The notes under the pieces: generated by a model
The model's database searches: none
Told to the model about the DNA's origin: nothing
The model's input: the letters and a program-made list of their open reading frames with translations, nothing else
In this document: positions 22,576-24,504 of the stretch, one piece after another
Layout: every line of letters starts with the position of its first letter
Position numbering within the stretch: the first letter of the stretch is position 1
From: a virus
Virus record (IMG/VR): IMGVR_UViG_3300024265_000006
Coordinates: 1 to 55,101 of that record
Direction: 5' to 3' (one strand)
Length of the DNA: 55,101 nucleotides
Made by a program: the position numbers and the translations under genes

Positions 22576-22737
22576 ATGTTTTTACAAGAATTTAATAGCA
22601 CATCAATGCAACGCAAACCTGCCGTTGTTTTTGATGCGGCACTTAAGCAACCTATTATTATTAGTCGTCAATCACATGAAAGCGTGGTTATGTTAAGCAA
22701 AAAAGAATACGCAAAATTAGTAAAAGCAGCGCAATAA
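22576..22737 (+). CDS. Phd/YefM-like antitoxin, orphan
   Basis: 53 aa from ATG 22576 with TATGGAG upstream. MQRKPAVVFDAALKQPIIIS, then RQSHESVVMLSKKEYAKLVK matches the antitoxin fold (short helix, strand ...P(V/I)II.R......V.(V/L)S...Y). It is short for the family, with little C-terminal toxin-binding tail, and no toxin gene follows. It may neutralise a host toxin or act only as a repressor of its own promoter and the replication genes behind it. Confidence 0.65.
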   Translation: MFLQEFNSTSMQRKPAVVFDAALKQPIIISRQSHESVVMLSKKEYAKLVKAAQ

Positions 22738-22786: not shown

Positions 22787-23521
22787 ATGAGCAAGAATAA
22801 AAAATCATTCTTGATACATATTGATAGCTTGGACATCCTTGATGATCTTACCAATGAACAAGCTGGTGAGCTATTTAATGCCATTAGGTCGCATCAAGTT
22901 GGTGAAGAAATAGAGCTTCATGGCGTTGTAAGAATTGCATTTTCACCATTTAAAAACCAATTTAAGCGTGATGATGAAAAGTATCAAATTACGTGTAAAC
23001 GTAGAGCTGAAGCGGGTTCGCTAGGAGGCAAGCAAAAGGTAGCAAATGCTAGCAAAAGCAAGCAAACCATAGCAAACGTAGCAGATAATAAAACAAAGAA
23101 TAAGAATAAAACAAATAATGATAGTGATAGTGATCTTAAAGATCCTATGTCGTGCAAGCCCGACGTTGTGGAAATTATTAATCACATGAATTCGGTGATC
23201 GGGACTAAATACAAAACGTCAACCAAGTCACATATTCAAAATATTAGCGCTAGGTTGTCGGAAGGTCACAGTGTTGACGATTTGAAAAAAGTGATCGACT
23301 TTAAATATTCACAATGGGGGAATAGTCAAGAAATGGCAGGATTCCTTAGGCCTTCAACTTTATTTCAAACTAGTAAGTTTCAAGGATATTTAACGGCATC
23401 GAAAACTGTTAGCACAGGTCAACATCGAGACATTAACAAAATCGGCACTGACTTTTCACAGCCAGCAGGTTTTAAGAAAATGATATTTAACGATCAAGGG
23501 GAGCATATCGGATATGAGTGA
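22787..23521 (+). CDS. Phage replication initiator / organiser
   Basis: 244 aa. The N-terminal 75 residues match DUF6291-like replication proteins (LTNEQAGELFNAIRSHQVGE). The C-terminal part matches the phage replisome-organiser C-terminal domain (VVEIINHMNSVIGTKYKTST, ISARLSEGHSVDDLKKVIDF, then FLRPSTLFQTSKFQGYL). A polar Asn/Lys/Ser linker joins them and its DNA contains the iterons (23031-23085). It should bind the origin and, with the DnaC-like protein downstream, load the host DnaB helicase. Confidence 0.8.
   Translation: MSKNKKSFLIHIDSLDILDDLTNEQAGELFNAIRSHQVGEEIELHGVVRIAFSPFKNQFKRDDEKYQITCKRRAEAGSLGGKQKVANASKSKQTIANVADNKTKNKNKTNNDSDSDLKDPMSCKPDVVEIINHMNSVIGTKYKTSTKSHIQNISARLSEGHSVDDLKKVIDFKYSQWGNSQEMAGFLRPSTLFQTSKFQGYLTASKTVSTGQHRDINKIGTDFSQPAGFKKMIFNDQGEHIGYE
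23031..23085 (+). repeat. 10-bp-phased AGCAAA iterons, probable replication origin
   Basis: AGCAAA begins at 23031, 23041, 23051, 23061 and 23071, with AGCAGA at 23080. The 10-bp period is one helical turn and is not a multiple of three, so it is not a simple protein repeat. The next 50 bases are almost only A and T. Iterons beside an AT-rich stretch inside the initiator gene is the known origin layout of lambda-type phages. Confidence 0.7.
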
Positions 23522-23771
23522 AATAGGAGATGTATTCGCGGCCTTGGCTGAGCGGAAGAAATTAAAAAAGAAATCCAATATCGAGCATTCGACATACCTA
23601 CTTATCGACAAAGGATTTGATATCGACATTAGAAATAATGGCGCTCATTTGATTGTTAGCCACAACTCTAAGATTGCTGACTTTTGGCCTTCAACTGGAA
23701 AGTTTAATATTCGGGGTGAATCTGGCTATGGTCGAGGCGTTAAAAATCTAATAAAAAAGATGGGAGGTTAA
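23514..23771 (+). CDS. 85-aa hypothetical protein between initiator and helicase loader
   Basis: MSEIGDVFAALAERKKLKKK, then a beta-rich part (AHLIVSHNSKIADFWPSTGK) and a C-terminal NLIKKMGG. ATG overlaps the initiator's stop region. This type of small protein is common next to phage replication genes. Function unknown. Confidence 0.65.
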   Translation: MSEIGDVFAALAERKKLKKKSNIEHSTYLLIDKGFDIDIRNNGAHLIVSHNSKIADFWPSTGKFNIRGESGYGRGVKNLIKKMGG

Positions 23772-23772
23772 G

Positions 23773-24504
23773 GTGTCAGATAAATCAACTTACAGGCGGT
23801 TGCTTGCCCAATCAACCAAAGAAAAGCCTAAGTATAGCTATCAGGATTTGCTAGCGCTACGACAGCAAGGCGAACGCGACACAACGCAGGCCTTCGTACA
23901 GCAACATGAAGAGCACGCCAGCAAATCGATTATAGGGCGCTCTGGTATATTGCCAATTCATCAAAGTTGCTCATTAAAAAGCTATGTCGTTAACTGCGAA
24001 GGGCAGCAATATGCCCGAGGCTATGCCGAATGGTTTATTAATAACTTTCACTTAAATAACGGCAGTAGCTTTATTTTTGGCGGCACTACCGGAACAGGCA
24101 AAAATCATTTGTCAGCAGCAATATGCAACGCGCTAATGGAACAAAGCAAGCGATGCCTGATAATCACAGTGTCAGAGCTGATGATGCGCTTAAACAGCTG
24201 CTACGGCGATAACGCCAAAATGACCGAGGAGCAATTTTTCGACGGCATGGTTAGATTAGACTTACTTGTCATTGATGAGGTTGGCTTGGGCAGAACATCA
24301 AACAACGCATCAAACAACGAGAAGCTGGCGATCAACCAAATTGTCGACAAGCGTTTATGCCATCTAAAGCCGACCGGAATATTAACCAATCTCGGCCAAG
24401 AAGAAATTAACACTCAATTAGGCGTCCGCATTATGGACAGAATGAGAAACGACGGCGGTCAGTGGGTTCAATTTAAATGGCCTAGCCACAGAAATCAGGG
24501 GTAA
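23773..24504 (+). CDS. DnaC-like helicase loader ATPase
   Basis: 243 aa from GTG 23773, with GGAGG upstream. AAA+ motifs: Walker A GGTTGTGKNH (103-112), Walker B LDLLVIDEVG (161-170), sensor region and the arginine-containing VRIMDRMRNDGG near the C-terminus. The N-terminal 60 residues resemble the DnaB-binding part of DnaC. It loads the replicative helicase onto the melted origin. Confidence 0.88.
   Translation: MSDKSTYRRLLAQSTKEKPKYSYQDLLALRQQGERDTTQAFVQQHEEHASKSIIGRSGILPIHQSCSLKSYVVNCEGQQYARGYAEWFINNFHLNNGSSFIFGGTTGTGKNHLSAAICNALMEQSKRCLIITVSELMMRLNSCYGDNAKMTEEQFFDGMVRLDLLVIDEVGLGRTSNNASNNEKLAINQIVDKRLCHLKPTGILTNLGQEEINTQLGVRIMDRMRNDGGQWVQFKWPSHRNQG

Follow-up and report, generated by a model that had tools for sequence, protein, structure and literature searches.

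In phage lambda and in the Stx phages P27 and 933W, iterons and an A+T-rich tract lie in the middle of the initiator gene (lambda O, ori-lambda), and a helicase-loader gene is found downstream (PMC7466680). In iteron plasmids such as RK2, F and R6K, a replicon-encoded initiator binds direct repeats whose helical spacing matters, with an A+T-rich DUE beside them (PMC10797057). The PLE satellites of Vibrio cholerae use a RepA_N initiator with a DNA-binding N-domain, a variable C-domain and cognate repeats (PMC7145576), and in bacterial oriC the DnaA-trio, a repeated 5'-TA(A/G)-3', stands next to a DnaA box (PMC10797057). An origin inside an initiator gene is already known and is not the surprise here.

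We analysed a 55,101-base IMG/VR virus record (IMGVR_UViG_3300024265_000006; the window) whose replication initiator gene carries a phased array of AGCAAA sites. We conclude with high confidence that this array is the phage replication origin, embedded in its own initiator gene as in lambda O, with the DUF6291 domain as its reader; that the initiator binds it, that the DNA opens and that replication starts there are inferences.

The initiator gene and its phased iterons

The initiator gene product matches DUF6291 (PF19808; 2e-20, 73.2 bits) and Phg_2220_C (PF09524; 2.5e-26, 92 bits), both above their Pfam cut-offs of 27.2 and 27, and a PHROGs scan assigns it to PHROG_428, replication initiation protein (4.5e-32). 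The features of the locus are as follows.

22787-23521, + strand: replication initiator gene, 244 aa; DUF6291, disordered linker and Phg_2220_C (Pfam, PHROGs)
22805-23038, + strand: DUF6291 domain, aa 7-84, proposed site-recognition domain (Pfam; AlphaFold2)
23003-23014, + strand: R73 codon (23003-23005) and A76 codon (23012-23014), outside the iterons; residues that switch with motif class (comparison of relatives)
23031-23036, + strand: iteron 1, AGCAAA (sequence)
23041-23046, + strand: iteron 2, AGCAAA (sequence)
23051-23056, + strand: iteron 3, AGCAAA (sequence)
23061-23066, + strand: iteron 4, AGCAAA (sequence)
23071-23076, + strand: iteron 5, AGCAAA (sequence)
23080-23085, + strand: terminal AGCAGA, 9 bp after iteron 5 (sequence)
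23045-23152, + strand: predicted disordered linker codons, aa 87-122, pLDDT under 50 (AlphaFold2)
23086-23140, + strand: candidate DNA-unwinding tract with 82% A+T and GATAGT hexamers at its end, encoding DNKTKNKNKTNNDSDSD (sequence)
23174-23392, + strand: Phg_2220_C domain, aa 130-202, swappable C-terminal module (Pfam; comparison of relatives)
23773-24504, + strand: DnaC-like helicase loader, second gene downstream of the initiator (PHROG_50, 2.7e-58)

In the AlphaFold2 model of the initiator, the N-domain consists of three helices, the linker is disordered and the C-terminal domain is helical; the array begins at the extreme end of the N-domain and extends through the first part of the linker. 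No PDB fold match was obtained for the modelled N-domain or the full-length protein, so that a DNA-binding fold is not recognised, and no PDB sequence matched the initiator. A ribbon-helix-helix N terminus (SFLIHID, then two helices) was considered and rejected, as the monomer model contains no strand and the only hint was a non-significant 31-residue match to a chain of the DinJ-YafQ complex.

Upstream of the initiator gene, a short ORF (22585-22734) resembles Phd/YefM antitoxins, although its 25.4 bits fall short of the Pfam cut-off (29.8). Between the initiator gene, whose end it overlaps, and the loader lies a small ORF without known function (23514-23771); Vibrio phage D478 has a gene of similar size at the matching position. 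Genes for a Dam-like methyltransferase and NinB come after the loader (Pfam, PHROGs).

An earlier reading of this DNA from its letters alone (the sequence-only reading) had placed the five AGCAAA copies and the final AGCAGA at exactly the positions listed (which are all on the + strand), and had taken the 10-bp step to put every site on the same side of the helix. The phase is real; the shared face is only approximate, because the helix turns once in about 10.5 bp and four steps of 10 bp leave the sites roughly 2 bp out of register. Three in-phase AGCAAA copies occur as three matches in the window and as none in 100 dinucleotide shuffles, and tandem-array scoring across the window ranks the AGCAAA array highest. 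From unit to unit the four spacer bases vary and the six site bases are kept. The ending AGCAG(A/T) with a 9-bp last step recurs in relatives and in non-coding arrays.

The stretch behind the array had been described as A/T-only, which is incorrect: the longest A/T-only run in 23086-23140 is 9 bp. This tract is locally weak, yet 105 50-mer positions in the record melt more easily than its best. GC skew, suggested earlier as a marker of the origin, lends no support; near 19 kb and 30 kb in the window its sign flips along with the coding strand, which makes it uninformative for this purpose.

Tract, neighbouring genes and non-coding arrays in relatives

To place the locus among its kin, 158 non-redundant relatives were gathered by N-domain homology only, except for a few found with whole-protein patterns; a broad N-domain alignment (A1) was too diverse to serve as a search query. 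A period-6 run is present in 145/158 relatives and begins, in the median, 72 nt past the domain; duplex stability in the relatives reaches its minimum 60-100 nt past DUF6291. Coding versions of the tract mostly alternate with TGA or carry other hexamers. In Aeromonas phage 4_L372X (L688), an undetermined base in the GATAGT tract stops the annotated gene at 125 aa and has probably truncated the deposited gene model.

The downstream neighbour, defined as the first ORF of at least 110 aa, was compared in 136 relatives: in 53-59 of them it has a match to DnaB-like helicase families, and in at least 12 others a match to helicase-loader families. C-terminal modules vary widely among relatives with similar N-domains, and Phg_2220_C is missing in most of those checked. 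In L152 (also L552 and L459), a coding segment judged by eye to be GIY-YIG-type endonuclease-like (L152:5896-6225) follows the DUF6291 domain and precedes the rest of the gene, the AGCAAA array of L152 coming about 330 bp after this insert. Another DUF6291 initiator with a 10-bp AGCAAA array (L730, L195) has an open frame only if TGA is read as a residue (code 25 was tried).

Five records (G002-G006) contain a DUF6291 gene without an AGCAAA array and a non-coding array elsewhere. In G003 and G004 the array lies about 0.24 kb 5' of the gene on the other strand and comprises AGCAAA x4 at 10 bp, AGCAGT 9 bp on and then TAGTAATAG repeats. It lies about 1 kb 5' of the gene in G005 and G006, without a TAGTAATAG-like tract, and about 8 kb away from the gene in G002. 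Reading frames across all of these arrays are broken by stops, and in G002-G004 the sites, the 9-bp end and the TAGTAATAG-like tract are all intact. Relics of coding copies could perhaps be among them, but the sites are intact. Three non-coding tract copies read TAATAGTAATAG, a repeated 5'-TA(A/G)-3' with clear TAATAG runs. By eye, the DUF6291 genes of the five records have R at residue 73, as expected for AGCAAA.

Three further records (L049, L196 and L202; 21.9, 55.9 and 21.5 kb) hold an AGCAAA x4 array and no DUF6291 match anywhere in the record; they could be fragments, carriers of other initiator families, or elements relying on a helper's initiator. AGCAAA arrays are also found in linkers of phage proteins unmatched by, or not obviously, DUF6291 (L064, L061, L043, L167), suggesting that other initiator families may share the layout.

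The array might instead be an operator, through which the initiator or another repressor autoregulates the early operon without any start of replication. A helically phased array within a gene could block transcription, and non-coding arrays are also found upstream of DUF6291 genes. Against such a role, an A+T-rich tract adjoins the array in all but 13 of the 158 relatives, helicases or loaders are encoded downstream, one array lies kilobases from its gene (G002), and the same anatomy in lambda is an origin (PMC7466680). We consider an operator without origin activity improbable.

Periodicity, motif class and residue 73

We compared the periodicity of the DNA with a null in which the protein is fixed and its codons are redrawn from the locus's own usage (20,000 redraws). 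In the window, identity at lag 10 is 0.585 where the null expects 0.370 (p = 0.0001) and lag 20 also exceeds this null (p = 0.00015), with nothing unusual at lags 6-9 and 11-13. The 10-residue echo in the protein that the sequence-only reading had described is present, and lag 30, to which it corresponds, is what the protein alone yields. Across the 158 relatives the same motif-free null gives a mean z of 1.9 at lag 10 and 1.7 at lag 20, and about 0 or below at lags 7, 8, 12 and 13; the 10/20/30/40-bp periodicity is confined to the linker and absent from the N-domain and the C-terminal part. The 10-bp phase goes beyond what the protein sequence imposes.

Codon choice in AGCAAA-class genes depends on register. 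Within the array, 90/96 Lys codons that precede Gln are AAG, versus 12/33 and 8/22 in other parts of the gene; for Ser preceding Lys, AGC makes up 47/60 versus 7/50 and 1/27; and for Ala preceding Asn or Lys, GCA makes up 120/134, versus 31/73 in the C-terminal part. The tract that follows favours AGT for Ser (92/104), AAT for Asn (224/230) and GAT for Asp (139/146), such that serine codons within the same genes are AGC in the iterons and AGT in the tract. The class was defined by at least two AGCAAA copies, which inflates the array contrasts and leaves the tract contrasts and the motif-free null unaffected.

DNA-only scans of 2.9 million viral contigs placed AGCAAA x4 at 10 bp inside a DUF6291 reading frame at 76/101 loci. 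Among the matches listed, DUF6291 genes account for 56/119 loci at 11 bp and 1/120 at the codon-friendly 12 bp; the scans are compared by share in DUF6291 genes, since raw counts are not comparable. At 11 bp the three frames are read in the opposite order and a different peptide results (SKxEAKxKQ), indicating that the helical pitch is retained while the protein changes. Relatives without AGCAAA have, at the same place, AACCCA with inverted TGGGTT, TACCAAA/TGGTA, ATAACA/TGTTAT, TCAACA/TGTTGA and others, again spaced by about 10 bp, often with an inverted central pair, and followed by a 6-bp-periodic tract. Their linker peptides are unrelated, yet the pitch is alike. In the same contigs, a scan for the AACCCA layout (ACCCAN5ACCCAN4ACCCAGTGGG) returned 35 loci, 35/35 in DUF6291 genes, and the Pfam DUF6291 match was also recovered in ten relatives spanning motif classes and pitches. 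Loss of the DNA phase in relatives that keep the protein would have refuted the sequence-only reading; what we find is that the phase of about 10 bp is kept as motif, linker protein and C-terminal module change.

Named isolates represent several of these classes: Vibrio phage D478 has AGCAAA sites, vB_VpP_BT-1011 TACCAAA sites, 199E37-1 and PS_L5 AACCCA sites, and Cellulophaga phage phi19:3 TCAACA sites. Their DUF6291 genes are all annotated as hypothetical protein; in several, a gene for replication protein P (one isolate), a DnaB-like helicase or a DnaC-like loader adjoins.

These results bear on the possibility that the repeat belongs to the protein, with a charged, low-complexity linker (KQxxANxSK) producing a merely apparent phase in the DNA. 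The linker is indeed rich in lysine and asparagine, and the echo at lag 30 needs nothing beyond the protein. Such a repeat does not account for the excess at lags 10 and 20 over the protein-preserving null, for codons that flip with register (as for Lys before Gln), for one pitch under unrelated peptides, or for the near absence from the family of the 12-bp version, which would stay in frame. The non-coding arrays, with their interrupted frames, largely refute it, and we hold it to be very unlikely.

Relatives akin in their N-domains tend to share a motif class (52 label changes; shuffled mean 89, and 0/200 shuffles as low), but despite this signal the class changes repeatedly across relatives. 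The motif labels had been set before residues 73 and 76 were looked at. Residue 73 is R or K in 69/69 relatives with AGCAAA, TCAACA or ATAACA (RCA-type) sites and N or Q in 41/41 with AACCCA, TACCAAA or ACCGAA (ACC-type) sites, a separation that holds in 110/110. Residue 76 is A or S in the RCA-type group, bar two exceptions, and never in the ACC-type group. Held-out ACC-type loci from the DNA-only scan have N73 and N76 in 35/35, although some are near-copies or come from contigs in the first set. R occupies position 73 in 60 of the 64 AGCAAA x4 loci that could be aligned there; the 11-bp group has K in 24 and Q in 5, with 10 unaligned and the alignment uncertain.

How often the class has switched depends on the branches counted, with 1-2 switches on starred branches and 16-21 on the best tree; most of the switches fall on weakly supported branches. 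Restricted to starred branches, a test of residue 73 by independent pairs has only 1-2 pairs and no power. Residue 73 is near the linker, and both could travel together by recombination. On these comparisons, residue 73 is a candidate one-residue specificity switch, and its covariation with motif type lends indirect support to the inferred binding of the iterons by the initiator.

A recent slippage expansion of a functionless 10-bp unit, for which near-identical units in some relatives (L049, L099) could speak, is hardly credible given window spacers that differ around conserved sites, a phase conserved across very divergent relatives and motifs that change as a set with residue 73. The earlier inference of selection on DNA is borne out by the synonymous-codon null, the codon contrasts, the non-coding copies and the covariation of motif with residue 73, and we regard such selection as established at the level of sequence comparison.

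The proposed origin and known systems

As far as base sequence can establish it, the anatomy of the locus is that of phased iterons, a terminal half-site 9 bp on and an A+T-rich tract predicted to melt easily, all within the part of the gene that codes for the predicted disordered linker. The proposal that the phage origin lies in the initiator gene is supported as a reading, the downstream genes being helicases or loaders; initiator binding and the start of replication are still inferred, and for no family member did we find data on binding, footprints or replication. If the array is an origin, the DUF6291 domain would occupy one site in each helical turn, approximately along a single face of the DNA, and residues 73 and 76, which lie towards the end of the third helix, would help to set specificity. 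A row of bound initiators may then strain and open the neighbouring A+T-rich tract. The variable C-terminal module would recruit the partner encoded downstream, a DnaC-like loader here and a DnaB-like helicase in many relatives, and this partner would place the helicase on the opened strand.

More broadly, we think it probable, though well short of certain, that DUF6291 is a large family whose role in recognising phage origins has gone unnoticed, with the origin located in the linker codons just behind the domain. A code at residues 73 and 76 (R/A where the sites are of AGCAAA, ATAACA or TCAACA type, N where they are of ACC type) would make origin and protein mutually predictable across phages of several bacterial phyla, and site classes would be replaced again and again as domain and linker change together.

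DUF6291 is not mentioned in the literature searched, which on the family or its layout yielded only the lambda/Stx case, iteron plasmids and satellites; subscription papers were outside its scope, and an earlier report is not excluded. The unexpected part is that an in-gene origin seems to run through a large family of unknown function: its sites fall into several classes, the helical pitch outlasts changes of motif, some arrays are non-coding, and a single residue is a candidate for the switch. A function is thereby proposed for a domain of unknown function. The layout is common to hundreds of related phage genes in which site and protein change together, which suggests where replication starts, and it locates the likely origin to the base in hundreds of phages and prophages. 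Named isolates of Vibrio, Pseudoalteromonas, Shewanella and Cellulophaga phages are among them, their genes labelled hypothetical protein. The layout also makes a joint change in the specificity of origin and initiator directly testable, and offers a clear-cut example of DNA signals running through all three frames of a replication gene.

Among the systems introduced above, the DnaA-trio is comparable with the tract only, and only in its repeat, which is read in the three non-coding copies; the coding tracts mostly differ. As in the PLE RepA_N system, the initiator family combines an N-domain, a variable C-domain and repeats; PLE differs in its RepA_N fold and in having semi-palindromic iterons in a non-coding region, and neither Pfam nor the PDB fold comparison matched the window initiator to RepA_N. 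The window array shares with iteron plasmids its direct repeats, helical spacing and an A+T-rich tract beside them. The plasmid Rep proteins have winged helices, in contrast to the predicted three-helix DUF6291 domain with its array inside the gene, and no winged-helix Rep family was found for the window initiator by Pfam, PDB fold or PDB sequence.

The likeness is closest in layout to lambda O and the Stx phages. No lambda O family is among the Pfam or PHROGs matches of the window, but the window initiator gene also holds iterons and an A+T-rich tract inside, a DnaC-like loader is encoded downstream (23773-24504) and the early region includes a NinB gene. Lambda iterons are longer than 6-bp cores, whereas the DUF6291 sites are 6-bp cores repeated every 10-11 bp, in classes that change with residue 73, and are read by initiators whose C-terminal modules and partners, loader or helicase, vary.
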